This document shows, piece by piece, positions 38,979 to 54,384 of a stretch of 64,000 bases of DNA. Every line of letters starts with the position of its first letter. Positions within the stretch are counted from its first letter, which is position 1. Origin of the DNA: Sedimenticola thiotaurini (GTDB taxonomy: Bacteria > Pseudomonadota > Gammaproteobacteria > Chromatiales > Chromatiaceae). A model generated the notes under the pieces. The model was not told the origin of the DNA, did not search any database, and saw only the letters and a list, made by a program, of their open reading frames with translations. Where the stretch lies: NCBI GenBank assembly GCA_007713595.1, contig VMRY01000034.1, forward strand, positions 29,963 to 93,962, given 5' to 3'. A program made the position numbers and the translations under genes.

Positions 38979-39108
38979 GTGTTTTAGAGTAGTGGTCCGA
39001 TAGGAAGGAAAAAAGCTAAACAATTGACCTGTAGAGTTTCTGGTTATCAAGCGTCTCTTGAAGTCTTACTTAAGGTTGCGAGTGATGCGCTTGAAATTGC
39101 ATTCACCA

Positions 39109-39162
39109 GTCTCCGTTAAACGGGGGAGGTCATATTGAAGCCCCTAGTTTAGCGGGGACTTC
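39109..39162. terminator. Two adjacent hairpins between convergent genes
   Basis: CTCCGTT/AACGGGGGAG-like and GAAGCCCC/GGGG-A-CTTC stems lie between the EamA gene and nikO, which converge. Neither has a clear T-run, so they are possible rather than certain terminators. Confidence 0.3.
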
Positions 39163-39179
39163 TAAAAAGCACCCACCCC

Positions 39180-39968
39180 TCAATCCCCCTCAACCACCTC
39201 TCCATGACTATGGTGATGTTTTGGTGCGTCGGTACTATGTTCATGCCCGGCATCTAGGCCCGCTGCATGTATATGCATATGTGAATGGGTATGCACATGG
39301 GGATGGCTGTGCATCACGCCTTCTACCAGGGTGCCATCCTGGATCATCACGGCACGGGTAGAGAGTCGTTCGACCAGTTTTCTGTCATGGGAGACAAAGA
39401 CCATTGCTTGAGTGAGTGACTCCAGATGTTCCAGTAATCGTTTTTCTGCCTTCTCATCCAATCCATTGGTTGGTTCATCCATTAGCAGCACTTCAGGCTG
39501 CATGGCCAACACGGTGGCCAGCGATATCATGCGCTTTTCCCCACCTGAGAGTTTATGTGTGACACGTTGGAGATAGTTGGACATGCCCAGTGATGCCAGC
39601 GTCTCTTCAGCAATTGTCTTGGCTTCCGCTTCGCTTTTGCGCAGATTAAGCGGGCCAAACATGACATCTTCTAAAACGGTAGGACAGAACAGTTGATCAT
39701 CCGCATCCTGGAACAGCAGGCCTGCCTTGGCGCGTACTTCGCGGAAATCGCTTTCACACTGGCGTGTCTGACCAAAGGCTGAGATGGTTCCTGTTGTAGG
39801 TTTGTGCAGACCCACCATGAGCTGCAAGAGGGTTGATTTTCCTGCGCCATTCTCACCCAGTAGCGCAACCCGCTCACCCGCATGGAGTGTGAAATTTACA
39901 TCAGAGAGCACCGAATGGGCGGGATAGTCGAATCCGATCTGATCCAGCGTAATGAGTGGCCCATTCAT
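39180..39968 (-). CDS. nikO: Nickel/cobalt ECF transporter ATPase NikO
   Basis: 262 residues. Walker A LLGENGAGKST, signature LSGGEKRMISLA and Walker B LLMDEPTNGL are intact. The C-terminus (about residues 219-258) is very His-rich (HSHPHVHTHSHMHIH, HHHSHG), suggesting nickel storage or sensing attached to the ATPase. It overlaps nikQ by four bases (ATGA). CbiO is the cobalt paralogue; the NikK/NikL/NikR neighbours favour nickel. Confidence 0.88.
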   Translation of the reverse strand: MNGPLITLDQIGFDYPAHSVLSDVNFTLHAGERVALLGENGAGKSTLLQLMVGLHKPTTGTISAFGQTRQCESDFREVRAKAGLLFQDADDQLFCPTVLEDVMFGPLNLRKSEAEAKTIAEETLASLGMSNYLQRVTHKLSGGEKRMISLATVLAMQPEVLLMDEPTNGLDEKAEKRLLEHLESLTQAMVFVSHDRKLVERLSTRAVMIQDGTLVEGVMHSHPHVHTHSHMHIHAAGLDAGHEHSTDAPKHHHSHGEVVEGD

Positions 39969-40723
39969 AGCGTCTGATCCAGTAACAGGGCGAACAGGCA
40001 GAGGAGACTCAGCGTCAGCAACACAAGCGTGTCGCGCATTTGCCAGCAGTTGGTTGTTATGAGATAGAGCTTGCCATTAAAACCACGACACTTCATCGCC
40101 GCCAGAATACGTTGCGAGCGCTCCAGGCTGCGCACCAGCAGCATCCCGATCAGCCAGCCAAAGCTGCGCCAGGTGTGGCGGTTACTACTGGCGATAAAGG
40201 CACGGGCGCGCATCGCCATGCGCAGGCGTTGATACTCATCGAACAGTACGCTTATATAGCGCACGGTAAACAGAAAAAGATGAATCAGTTTCTCAGGCAG
40301 TTTCAGTTGCGCCAACGCATGCCCAAGTACGACCGGTTCGAGTGTGCCGATCATGGTCATCAGCATAATGACAATGGCATTGGCCTTGAGCACAATCTGT
40401 ATAGCGCGCTGAATTCCCTCTATGCTGGCACTGAGTGCACCCAGAGTGAACAAGCTTTCACCCGGTATTGAAAAAGGTAGCATGATTAGCAGTACCAGCA
40501 TGAATCCTTCCATGGCCAGCAGGCGTTTCAATAACACGCTTCGGCTAATCCCTGTTACCCAGGCGACTAACAATGCGGCAAAGAGGATCAGAATCAGCAG
40601 GGATATCTGTTGCAGAGCGACTGTAGTCAGGGCAAACAGCAGGGCGGTCATCAAGCGCATGCGTGGATCGAACTGTTCAAGCCAGTCTGATCGTGCATTC
40701 TCCTCTGCCACGGTTAGCTGCAT
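39965..40723 (-). CDS. nikQ: ECF transporter T component NikQ/CbiQ
   Basis: 252 residues with several TM helices and the two coupling motifs of the T subunit visible as AMRARAF and RILAAMKCRGF (A-x-R-x/A-x-R-G type), which bind the ATPase grooves. Its ATG shares a base with the nikL stop (TAATG). Joins NikM to NikO. Confidence 0.88.
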   Translation of the reverse strand: MQLTVAEENARSDWLEQFDPRMRLMTALLFALTTVALQQISLLILILFAALLVAWVTGISRSVLLKRLLAMEGFMLVLLIMLPFSIPGESLFTLGALSASIEGIQRAIQIVLKANAIVIMLMTMIGTLEPVVLGHALAQLKLPEKLIHLFLFTVRYISVLFDEYQRLRMAMRARAFIASSNRHTWRSFGWLIGMLLVRSLERSQRILAAMKCRGFNGKLYLITTNCWQMRDTLVLLTLSLLCLFALLLDQTL

Positions 40724-41292
40724 TACTTTTTACCCGGAGTCTGTTTGCTGCGCCACCAGAGCGCGATACCGGCGAGTCCAAATATGAAACCGACACCACC
40801 CAGTATGTCACTCAGACGAGCGCGGTCATCACTGCGTTGCAGTGATTCACGCAGGGGGCCAATCTGTTTGGCCACAGCCTGTTCCACTAGCAGTGCAAGT
40901 TGCTGATCTGTTTTTGTTGATGTCGCTGGTGATGAGGCCGGGTAGGATTGATTTGAGGAGTCTGTGGTGTCAGATGTTGAGTTGAATGTATCCGCTTTAA
41001 TCAACCATTCGGCCTGATGACCCTCACCTGTATTAGCTTGAATCTTGTAATCATCAGGTCGCGATGCAGTGAATAAAAATTCACCTTTGGCATCACTCTT
41101 CAGGTTGCTTTGTTCCTTGTCAGTCAAACTTGTAAGAGTGATCGCCGCCCCTTCGACGCCTGCTCCACCGGCAAAATAGGTGGAACCATGTATGGTATTA
41201 CCTTCAACATAGGCAAACAGTTTAAGCAGGTGAGCGTCTGCCGATGTATGTATCAGCAACAGAGCTAAACAGAGCATACGCTTGTGATACAT
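40723..41292 (-). CDS. nikL: Nickel transporter accessory protein NikL
   Basis: 189 residues: signal peptide (about 1-20, ending SADA, next residues HLLKLF), a periplasmic Ig-like/carboxypeptidase-regulatory fold (FAYVEGNTIHGSTYFAGGAGVEGAAITL; SDAKGEFLFTA), a Ser/Thr-rich linker, a short coiled coil and a C-terminal TM helix (about 165-182). That is the NikL plan. The His following the signal cleavage site may bind metal. Ribosome site GGAG at the nikM 3' end. Confidence 0.78.
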   Translation of the reverse strand: MYHKRMLCLALLLIHTSADAHLLKLFAYVEGNTIHGSTYFAGGAGVEGAAITLTSLTDKEQSNLKSDAKGEFLFTASRPDDYKIQANTGEGHQAEWLIKADTFNSTSDTTDSSNQSYPASSPATSTKTDQQLALLVEQAVAKQIGPLRESLQRSDDRARLSDILGGVGFIFGLAGIALWWRSKQTPGKK

Positions 41293-41298
41293 AAACAG

Positions 41299-41907
41299 TT
41301 ACTCCTGCACCCGGATCAGCTCCGGTGCCACTTTAATAATGAAGGCCAGGGTAAAGCCGGTGACCGCGGCCTCGGCCAGCATCAAAGGGGCATAGGTTGC
41401 CAGCACAATCTTGGCGGCTGGCAGATAAGCAGATCCACTTAAACCCAGTGACAGGCTGACCAGTGTGCCCGTCAATAAAACGCCCACGGCACCGCAGAGT
41501 GCACCCAGATAAAAGAGCTGCCTGCCGCTTGAGCGATGCAGTATCGGCGCAAACAGGGCGCTACAGATCAGTGCCGGCAGTGCAATATTCAAGGTATTCA
41601 CGCCCAGGACCAGCAGACCGCCATAACCAAAAAACACCGCCTGCATAATCAGGGCGATCAGGATGGCAGGCACGGCAGACCAGCCCAGTATGATACCCAT
41701 CAGTCCATTGAGAATCAGATGAACACTGGAAGGACCCACTGGAACGCTCAGCAGCGAGGCGATAAAAAAAGTAGCGGCAAGAACCGCAGCCTGCGGTATG
41801 CGCTCAAAATTGAGTCGGCGTGTTGCGACCACCAGCAGGGCGGTGGAGAGTACAGCGCCTGTTATTAGTACGGGTGCAGAGAGTACGCCATCGGGTATGT
41901 GTGCGAT
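41299..41907 (-). CDS. nikM: Nickel ECF transporter S component NikM/CbiM with an ATC start
   Basis: The ORF track begins at an internal GTG (41832), but reading upstream in frame gives AHIPDGVLSAPVLITGAV, the conserved NikM/CbiM N-terminus. The codon where Met belongs is ATC (41907-41905), with GAGAGGAG upstream at normal distance; no ATG, GTG or TTG lies between it and the upstream in-frame stop. From the ATC the protein has 202 residues, with SSVHLILNGLMG containing the second metal-binding His. In this family the N-terminal amine and the following His hold the metal, so the extended form is needed for function. Confidence 0.82.
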   Translation of the reverse strand: MAHIPDGVLSAPVLITGAVLSTALLVVATRRLNFERIPQAAVLAATFFIASLLSVPVGPSSVHLILNGLMGIILGWSAVPAILIALIMQAVFFGYGGLLVLGVNTLNIALPALICSALFAPILHRSSGRQLFYLGALCGAVGVLLTGTLVSLSLGLSGSAYLPAAKIVLATYAPLMLAEAAVTGFTLAFIIKVAPELIRVQE

Positions 41908-41911
41908 GAGC

Positions 41912-42694
41912 CTATCTCCTCTCCGGTGTCATGTCGCGGGCGTAGATCCAGATCAGCGCGCCCTGTTCAAGTGGTACCGATTCACCCTGTGGGTTTGTTA
42001 CCGTCTCAGCCCCTTCAAGCAGGGCTGCAAAGCCCCACCAACCGGATCGGGGCAGGGCATAGCTGAAGGTGCCGTTGGCATCGGCTTTGATGATCTGGGT
42101 AACGTAGGGATCGGCGGGCGGGCTGATGGAGCCGTCATTCAACCACTCCACTTCAATTTCTGCGAAGGGAACGGGTTGACCTGCTTGCTTCACCACGCCC
42201 TGGAACAGATTGCCGGTCCAGAGTCCATAGGGACGCGTTAATGGATCGATTTCAACGGGGAAGCCGATGAGTTGATCCCAACCTGCCTCGCCGGCAAAGG
42301 CACCCACAACCACTTTGGTGTAGTGCTTGATCATCACCCCTTCGCTGGGTTCCCAGTACGGGGAAGGCTCTATATAGAAGAGATAATCACCCGGCCGGGT
42401 GAAACGGTAATTGGCTTGGTAGGCGGGCTGTCCTTGGCGTTCAAGTGGCTTCAGCTGGGCTTTGAGATCTTCCCGGCCGTTGGGCCCGATGACGCCAAAT
42501 TGCAGCGGCTTGCCCATCGTCATCACCGGTCCTTGCTGCATCGGGTGGGTAAAAGCGAGATCCAGTGTCACTCGGTGCTCACTCGCTTGTGAGACGATAT
42601 CCAGTGACGGGATTAACGTCTGAAAGTGAGCTGGGGAAAGGCCTGGCAACATGATGAGCAGCAGGGCCATCCAGAGGATAAGCTTGGTTTGCAT
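41912..42694 (-). CDS. nikK: Nickel transporter accessory protein NikK (DUF4198)
   Basis: 260 residues from the ATG at 42694 (GGAG upstream; the ORF track adds one TTG codon). A signal peptide (about 1-23) ends LSPA, leaving HFQTLIPS, so a His is at or near the mature N-terminus, as in NikK. The body is the DUF4198 beta-sandwich (EHRVTLDLAFTHPM; GDYLFYIEPSPYWEPSEG). It likely hands nickel to NikM. First gene of nikKMLQO, with a palindromic site 56 bases upstream. Confidence 0.83.
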   Translation of the reverse strand: MQTKLILWMALLLIMLPGLSPAHFQTLIPSLDIVSQASEHRVTLDLAFTHPMQQGPVMTMGKPLQFGVIGPNGREDLKAQLKPLERQGQPAYQANYRFTRPGDYLFYIEPSPYWEPSEGVMIKHYTKVVVGAFAGEAGWDQLIGFPVEIDPLTRPYGLWTGNLFQGVVKQAGQPVPFAEIEVEWLNDGSISPPADPYVTQIIKADANGTFSYALPRSGWWGFAALLEGAETVTNPQGESVPLEQGALIWIYARDMTPERR

Positions 42695-42752
42695 CAATAG
42701 ACTCCGATAAGAGAGCGGGGTCGATACTGCGGGCTCCCCGGTAGTTATGAAA

Positions 42753-42777
42753 TATTACAAAAAAATAATTTGTAATA
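42753..42777. promoter_or_regulatory. Candidate NikR operator before nikK
   Basis: TATTACAAA and TTTGTAATA form a perfect 9-bp inverted repeat around a 7-base spacer, in the nikR-nikK gap. Wide-spaced AT-rich palindromes with TTAC/GTAA arms are typical NikR targets outside enterobacteria. Nickel-loaded NikR bound here would shut off import. Confidence 0.65.
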
Positions 42778-42813
42778 CAATCGGAGCGAAAGGGTAGGAA
42801 ATTTTGCTCAGCA

Positions 42814-43281
42814 TCAGGTCTGCGGATGAGTGTGGCTGTGCTTGTGGGCTGACCCGCCATGATGGTGTTGCTCTTGCTCCACCTCGACAGGAATCAGGTT
42901 CAGTTTTCCGTGGCGTACACCGGGCTGGGTGATTACCGCGTTGGCAAACTCTTTCACCTCGCGGATCGGCCCATTGACCACTACCGTCTCCAGGCAGTTC
43001 ACATGATCCAGATGGACGTGCAGGGTGGAGATTGAGACATCGTGGTGGTGGTGATGGGCGTGGGTCAGCCTTCTGGCCAGCTCGCGCTCTTCGTGGTTAA
43101 AGACATAGGTGAGGGTGCCAATGCAGTGCCCGGCATCGGACTTCGCCATGCGGTCGGCCTCCAGGGTGTCTCTGATCATATCCCGTATTGCCTCTGAGCG
43201 ATTTTTGTAATTGCGCTGCTTGAGGTACTCCTCAAACTGACTGACCAGCTCTTCATCCAGGGATATGGTGATGCGTTCCAT
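42814..43281 (-). CDS. nikR: Nickel-responsive regulator NikR
   Basis: 155 residues. Residues 1-45 are a ribbon-helix-helix (ERITISLDEELVSQFEEYL; NRSEAIRDMIR). The high-affinity nickel ligands are His77, His88, His90 and Cys96 (HHHHHD...; LHVHLDHVNCLE), the same spacing as His76/87/89/Cys95 in E. coli. The C-terminus is unusual: an added His-rich tail (EQEQHHHGGSAHKHSHTHPQ, about 136-154). Lies just upstream of nikK. Confidence 0.92.
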   Translation of the reverse strand: MERITISLDEELVSQFEEYLKQRNYKNRSEAIRDMIRDTLEADRMAKSDAGHCIGTLTYVFNHEERELARRLTHAHHHHHDVSISTLHVHLDHVNCLETVVVNGPIREVKEFANAVITQPGVRHGKLNLIPVEVEQEQHHHGGSAHKHSHTHPQT

Positions 43282-43402
43282 TGTGCTTCCTCTTGATCAC
43301 GGGCATGCTATTGGTGAATGATCGCAGGTGTTCCAGGGCGGGGCAAACATTCCTTGGCAGCCTGATTTTACGATGACCCAATTTACAGCAGGAGCGTGAG
43401 AT

Positions 43403-43957
43403 ATGGGGCAACGCTATAACGAGATTCCGCAAAAGGTGATGACCTTCATCCAGAACCAGAAGGTCTTTTTTGTCGGCACGGCTGCGGCGGATGGCCGGGT
43501 CAATATCTCTCCAAAAGGGATGGATTCACTGCGCGTCATCGACAGCCAGCGGGTGCTCTGGCTCAATGTCACCGGCAGTGGCAATGAAACGGCGGCCCAT
43601 GTGGCGGAACTGCCCCGCATGACCCTGATGTTTTGTGCCTTCGAGGGAAATCCGATGATCCTGCGGCTGTATGGGACCGCCCGGGTGATTCATACCTATG
43701 ATGAAGAGTGGGAGAGACTCTATCCCTTGTTTAATCCGACGCCTGGTGTGCGGCAGATCTTCGATCTCTCAGTTGATCTGGTACAGACCTCCTGTGGCAT
43801 GGGGGTGCCCTTTTATGATTATGCTGGTGAGCGGGATCAGCTTATGGCCTGGACAGTGAAAAAGGGCGATGAGGGTATCCGAGACTACTGGCAAGAGAAG
43901 AATCAGCAGAGCCTGGATGGCAAGCCGACTTTTATATTCAAGCCGGATAATCGCTAA
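43403..43957 (+). CDS. Pyridoxamine 5'-phosphate oxidase-like flavoprotein
   Basis: 184 residues with the split-barrel FMN-binding fold of the PNPOx family (FFVGTAAADGRVNISPKGMDSLRVID; VTGSGNETAAHV). Members are usually FMN- or F420-binding reductases of unknown substrate; the vitamin B6 enzyme itself is longer and has other motifs. Divergent from nikR. Confidence 0.8.
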   Translation: MGQRYNEIPQKVMTFIQNQKVFFVGTAAADGRVNISPKGMDSLRVIDSQRVLWLNVTGSGNETAAHVAELPRMTLMFCAFEGNPMILRLYGTARVIHTYDEEWERLYPLFNPTPGVRQIFDLSVDLVQTSCGMGVPFYDYAGERDQLMAWTVKKGDEGIRDYWQEKNQQSLDGKPTFIFKPDNR

Positions 43958-44032
43958 TCACTGGAGTTGTTTTACGCATCCTGCTGATCAGGCAGGGTGC
44001 GCAGTTTCATCTCATTTGAAGAGCCCAGTTCT

Positions 44033-53705: not shown

Positions 53706-54384
53706 CTAGACAGTCAGAAGTGTAATTGACGGCGTGTTCAGTTTTGGATTTGATGCAAAGCCCCGCACCAATACAACATAGTCTCCCTCTGCAGCCACAT
53801 CGGATTCCCGTGCAATGCGTCGTGCCTACTTGTTTGGATGGGTGTTGCCTGCATCCTTTGCCAGAATCGGCAAAGTCCCCCATTGCGGGTTAAAGCGGCG
53901 ATAGGTTCCCGGGTTACAGGAGATGGCCAGCAGGGGGACAGTGGGCCTGGCAGAGCGTATTGTTATGGCTGACATGCCACTGTTGGAGAGACTAATAATC
54001 ATTTTTGCACGCATCTGTTTCGCCAGTGTGGCGGTGCTATGTGCTACGGCATGACCAAATGGAATAGGCTGGTCAATCTGAAGCAGATGTCGTTCCAGAT
54101 CAGTGTTATCTGTCCGTTCTTGAACAGACCGGTACGAATCTTTGGCCCGCAGAGATCGGCAAAATAGCGATTGGATTATTCAGCTCGTTTGCAATGGTGC
54201 GGACGGTGGCATATGTCGTTTCGTGGTATTCGTGTTCTACATGCGACATATTCAGGCGGAAAACATTTGCCCCGGCCTCAATAAGCTGTCAGATAATAGA
54301 AGGATCTGAGTTGGATGGCCCCAGAGTGGCAATAATCTTGGTTCTCCTGCTGTGCAATAGATCCCACTCTGTTTTGATGCTTAC
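53706..54384 (-). pseudogene. pyk: Decayed pyruvate kinase
   Basis: Hand translation of the minus strand shows pyruvate kinase in pieces: RRTKIIATLGPSNSDPSII, then an in-frame TGA (54291-54289), then QLIEAGANVFRLNMSHVEHEYH, a one-base deletion near 54160 inside ILADLCGPKIRTG, a jump from about residue 85 to the C-terminal domain (AKMIISLSNSGMSA), another stop (53828-53826) and finally ARESDVAAEGDYVVLVRGF ... TPSITLLTV. Less than half of a normal gene remains. The start codon also appears lost although GAGGAG persists. Clear pseudogene. Confidence 0.85.

Follow-up and report, generated by a model that had tools for sequence, protein, structure and literature searches.

Where does translation of nikM start in Sedimenticola thiotaurini? 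In the window, that is, the whole stretch of 64,000 nucleotides analysed here, the conserved N-terminus of the encoded protein is preceded, as read from the sequence, by the initiation codon ATC (positions 41907–41905, minus strand).

The nikM operon

The nikM gene (41299–41907, minus strand) encodes a protein of 202 amino acids, the S component of a nickel ECF transporter. The CbiM domain (Pfam PF01891, 180.1 bits) covers residues 3–197, that is, the whole protein, and the score of the NCBIfam model NF004905 is 240 bits with a cut-off of 173. According to the Pfam and NCBIfam matches, the gene order is nikR-nikK-nikM-nikL-nikQ-nikO, all on the minus strand. The nikR gene, encoding the nickel-responsive regulator (42814–43281; NF002815, 185.5 bits, cut-off 83), is situated upstream of nikK, whose product matches Pfam DUF4198 (41912–42694; 193 bits). 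The other genes are nikL (40723–41292; NikL family NF058648, 180.7 bits, cut-off 100), nikQ or cbiQ, encoding the T component (39965–40723; TIGR02454, 149 bits), and nikO or cbiO, encoding the ATPase (39180–39968; Pfam ABC_tran, the best NCBIfam matches being ECF ATPase models with scores below the cut-offs). All three start at ATG.

The nikR/nikK intergenic region contains a candidate NikR operator, ATATTAC-N13-GTAATAC (42752–42778), with a perfect 9-bp inverted repeat. Its layout matches that described for NikR, GTGTTAC-N13/14-GTAACAC (PMC545781). Hence transcription of the operon is probably controlled by nickel in the usual way. The gene content and the upstream 27-bp inverted repeat are the same as in the proteobacterial nikKMLQO nickel ECF transporters under NikR, but an AUC start is not described for those operons, as far as the searchable literature shows (PMC545781). 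No Rfam families or riboswitches were found at 39000–44000 of the window, and start-site folding yielded no RNA structure at the nikM start common to different species.

The start region of nikM

The minus strand from position 41939 onward reads CCGCGACATGACACCGGAGAGGAGATAGGCTCATCGCACACATACCCGATGGC. The nikM frame is open from 41928 to 41299. It begins with CAC CGG AGA GGA GAT AGG CTC, the only codons between the limit of the open frame and the ATC, and continues with ATC GCA CAC ATA CCC GAT GGC, the whole being translated as HRRGDRL-I-AHIPDG. None of ATG, GTG, TTG and CTG occurs in frame between the upstream stop and the ATC (41905–41907), which is the sole start-like codon between this stop and AHIPDG. 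The Shine-Dalgarno (SD) sequence GGAGAGGAG (41916–41924, minus strand) has the AGGAG core, lies 8 nucleotides 5' of the ATC, and forms a duplex of −9.1 kcal/mol with the anti-SD. The first-pass annotation had proposed an ATC initiator in frame with AHIPDG, behind a ribosome site and with no ATG, GTG or TTG between it and the upstream stop; its coordinates are right, and the sequence agrees with it on each of these points.

The first canonical codon of the frame is GTG at codon 26 (41832–41830, minus strand), selected by a mechanical ORF caller and an unlikely start. It had been argued that such a start would cost NikM its N-terminal metal-binding residues, and the structural comparison concurs. 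His3 of NikM aligns with His2 of the solved NikM2/CbiM chains 4m58 and 4m5b, and substrate binding by NikM/CbiM involves the two N-terminal residues (PMC6828968). The N-terminal metal-binding histidine, found in starts of the M-H-I-P or M-A-H-I-P type, is present in this protein only if AUC is the start.

Conservation of the start codon

Seven genomes of the genus yielded a nikM gene. ATC occupies the orthologous codon in five of them, the window's genome, S. selenatireducens BK-1 (G002; 86% protein identity to the window's NikM), S. hydrogenitrophicus SB48 and SN1189 (G001 and G007; 80% each) and G004 (74%). The remaining two, G003 and G006, have ATG, and the leader of the former, GAGGAGCCACG.CC, is common to the ATC relatives G001 and G007. 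Further members of the wider family with ATC are L008, L023, L026 and L045, beside orthologs with ATG, TTG and GTG.

When 84,980 genomes were scanned for AHIP(D/E)G(V/I)L preceded by ATH, 17 stretches matched. Ten of them are nikM N-termini, nine with ATC and one with ATA. The ATC genes include those of a Thioalkalivibrio MAG, a Thiotrichales MAG, Thiococcus pfennigii, a Chromatiales MAG and an alphaproteobacterial MAG; the ATA gene comes from an Aestuariirhabdus MAG. The other seven stretches (L079, L082, L083, L086–L089) are chance matches and not nikM. A class-wide pattern search gave two matches in 369 genomes, this set being too diverse.

The non-redundant nikM set used for the tests below contains 14 ATC genes (the window's included), one ATA, 34 ATG, eight TTG and three GTG; ATT is absent. 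The ATC and ATA genes are spread over several groups of Gammaproteobacteria, with one in an alphaproteobacterial MAG. The third base of the start is C in 14 of these 15 genes, while the true isoleucine codon three positions on varies.

A separate observation concerns L015, a homolog from the MHIVDG-type CbiM/NikM subfamily (G030:C1:1026471-1026860). It has ATC where near relatives, e.g. L078, have ATG, its short upstream frame contains no canonical start, and a clear SD is absent. The match covers only a part of the protein, and hence L015 may be a decaying copy.

Alternative readings of the start

Several readings would do without an AUC start. Translation from the GTG at codon 26, as the first canonical codon in frame, would yield a protein shorter by 25 residues, without its first helix and the residues that bind metal. 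Among 14 relatives compared, only L002 and L007 have GTG at this codon, most others having GCG, GCC, GCA, GTC, CTC or ATC, and orthologs starting at the internal GTG, which the first-pass annotation had named as the refuting outcome, were looked for in this set and not found. There is no SD within 20 nucleotides before this GTG. Changes in codons 2–25 within the genus are mostly synonymous (ten synonymous and three non-synonymous relative to S. selenatireducens BK-1), thus the region before the GTG is translated and constrained at the protein level, and a start at codon 26 is very improbable. The sequence upstream of the ATC, on the other hand, varies between species and shows no conservation at the protein level, whereas AHIPDG is constant. 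Another reading is a NikK-NikM fusion, formed when ribosomes shift frame or read through the stop codon of nikK. The arrangement could suggest it, as the stop codon TAG (41914–41912) is 4 nucleotides before the ATC and in a different frame from nikM. But both the sequence of the junction and the distance vary between species, several relatives have a stop in the nikM frame 4–7 codons before the ATC, and orthologs carry ATG, TTG or GTG in place of the ATC, making a fusion extremely improbable. The first-pass annotation had also considered a sequencing or point-mutation change from ATG, which would be an error or a recent event confined to this genome. While ATG does occur most often at this codon across the wider family, the ATC is conserved in separate, independently sequenced genomes of different species and genera (S. 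hydrogenitrophicus SN1189 and SB48, S. selenatireducens BK-1, Sedimenticola sp. BM503, Thiococcus pfennigii); this reading is hence refuted, and we regard its probability as negligible.

The position of the AUC start is well supported by the lack of another start codon, its conservation and its association with an SD, and the start codon proposed for nikM by the first-pass annotation stands, with ATC kept at the orthologous codon and alternative starts absent. Judging from these comparisons, AUC is almost certainly the position of the start. The composite claim that the AUC start is genuine, conserved and gives a lower yield than AUG would is, taken jointly, likely.

History of the AUC start

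In the NikM tree, all sequences with ATC or ATA lie outside a 40-member clade (support 85/99) with ATG, TTG and GTG starts. One three-member clade outside this canonical clade uses ATG. At least four changes between the ATC/ATA and the canonical class are needed, in a tree where many of the deep forks lack resolution, L045 and L085, both long branches with ATC, come together, and gain and loss are indistinguishable. AUC may be the ancestral state on its side of the tree, some members having reverted to ATG, or may have been gained a few times. To judge by its distribution, the AUC start of nikM is old and not a recent accident. At that, it is not indispensable, since ATG is used by two congeners and by the three-member clade.

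Shine-Dalgarno sequences and initiation at AUC

We considered an SD to be strong if AGGA, GGAG or GAGG was present at positions −20 to −5. By this criterion, a strong SD precedes all 15 ATC and ATA genes and 15 of the 45 orthologs with ATG, GTG or TTG (Fisher p=2.9e-6, shared descent ignored). The median anti-SD energy is −8.6 kcal/mol for ATC and −4.7 kcal/mol for ATG genes (p=3e-6 for ATC/ATA against ATG), again with shared descent ignored. The association of SD with the start codon is not phylogenetically independent, only two to four independent pairs being available for a sign test. Weak starts in general are paired with stronger SDs, and GUG and UUG starts with such compensation resemble nikM in combining a weak start with a strong SD (PMC5622118). 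However, GUG and UUG are common and tolerated by initiation factor IF3, whereas AUC is discriminated against and very rare.

The strong SD 8 nucleotides away would set the initiator fMet-tRNA on the AUC although the third base is mismatched, and ribosomes finishing nikK 4 nucleotides upstream probably help to place it. The residue inserted at the AUC would then be formylmethionine. Alanine in the second position should allow removal of methionine. The expected mature N-terminus is AHIPDGVLSAPVL, beginning with Ala-His-Ile-Pro and having the histidine in the metal-binding place. The AUC would have been kept or repeatedly re-acquired in this lineage with compensation by the SD.

From the known biology of initiation, AUC is expected to limit NikM synthesis, holding it below the level that AUG would give. 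A stoichiometric or regulatory role is a further step of inference: it may serve subunit stoichiometry or restraint of nickel uptake, or have no purpose.

Comparison with infC and sigR

IF3 represses starts other than ATG, GTG and TTG (PMC5472188). The infC gene encodes this factor and is the textbook case of a gene under its control. It starts at ATT in E. coli and at ATC in Streptomyces, where sigR starts at GTC (PMC5472188). In each of six genomes examined within the genus (loci L121, L118–L120, L122, L123) infC starts at ATC, the start region being GGAGGAAYTGA-(G/A)TT-ATC-GCY GCA CCA AAA AGA, so that, as in nikM, the ATC is followed by an alanine codon. ATC is present at the matching position in the other parsable members of the window's family. 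In three genomes outside this family that have nikM with ATC, infC appears to start at ATT (G455, locus L128, and the Thioalkalivibrio MAG, L131) or ATA (the Chromatiales MAG, L125). Hence the nikM start does not simply follow that of infC.

Like nikM, infC with its AUU or AUC has a start outside AUG, GUG and UUG, a strong SD, and conservation across species. Unlike nikM, it encodes the fidelity factor itself, so that its control is autoregulatory; the product of nikM transports metal and does not feed back on IF3. The Streptomyces sigR gene also resembles nikM in its conserved unusual start, its strong SD and its annotation at a wrong start. The differences are that sigR starts at GTC and encodes a regulator, and that repression by IF3 and loss of formylmethionine from the mature protein were shown for it by experiment (PMC5472188), while nikM is known by comparison only. 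Of the features of this class, a start other than ATG, GTG or TTG with no in-frame alternative, conservation between species and a strong SD are found in nikM; initiation with formylmethionine and repression by IF3 are predicted for it.

By analogy, IF3 would be expected to repress nikM, and NikM synthesis should be sensitive to IF3 as is the expression of infC, the other gene with an AUC start considered in this genome. It is a tentative suggestion that the AUC start serves IF3-linked regulation of nickel uptake. Equally speculative is the idea that nikM and infC form a small set of AUC-starting genes, in which the level of IF3 or the status of the ribosomes might gate nickel uptake through the rate of NikM synthesis, atop the transcriptional control by NikR.

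The AUC could also be genuine and yet a nearly neutral relic, persisting without any regulation as the strong SD, with or without coupling to nikK, suffices. We give this a substantial probability, somewhat short of even. It agrees with the generality of SD compensation for weak starts (PMC5622118), present in nikM too, and with L005, where ATG stands at the same codon behind much the same leader. Arguing in the opposite direction are retention of the AUC over deep divergence and in several groups, while AUG is generally favoured by selection (PMC5622118), and the near-constancy of the third base noted above.

To our knowledge, conserved bacterial starts outside ATG, GTG and TTG are limited to a handful of genes. 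On the comparative evidence, nikM joins this tiny set with a conserved weak start, represented by infC and Streptomyces sigR. No earlier report of an unusual nikM start was found in the searchable literature, most subscription papers being outside the search. If true, a transporter gene with an AUC start and a strong SD across genera would extend the IF3-class control of starts past infC and sigR. It also indicates a systematic annotation error, as NikM of these species would lose its metal-binding N-terminus in pipelines limited to ATG, GTG and TTG.

Starts of other genes

The start positions of 55 ORFs of the window having a homolog on the S. selenatireducens BK-1 contig were compared using a simple rule followed by inspection. 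The rule flagged 11 ORFs. Inspection of eight of these revealed a plausible canonical start slightly further in or a shifted alignment; the remaining ones are a degenerate fragment, an ORF at the window edge, and nikM. Thus, as judged by inspection, nikM is the only intact gene of the 55 without a canonical start shared with the ortholog near the conserved N-terminus. In the nikM loci, a canonical start candidate is available for nikL in 49 of 50 cases and for nikQ in 44 of 44. A published reconstruction covering 61,358 ancestral AUG starts lists one switch to AUU and none to AUC (PMC5622118). The rarity of AUC in such surveys is partly a matter of ascertainment, since the annotation they use seldom calls AUC.

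Finally, a short ORF at 53829–54179 of the window (minus strand) has no canonical start for 55 codons. It matches a longer ORF of S. selenatireducens BK-1 in the C-terminal portion only, from residue 356 onward, and has the look of a gene fragment, resembling pyruvate kinase on visual inspection.
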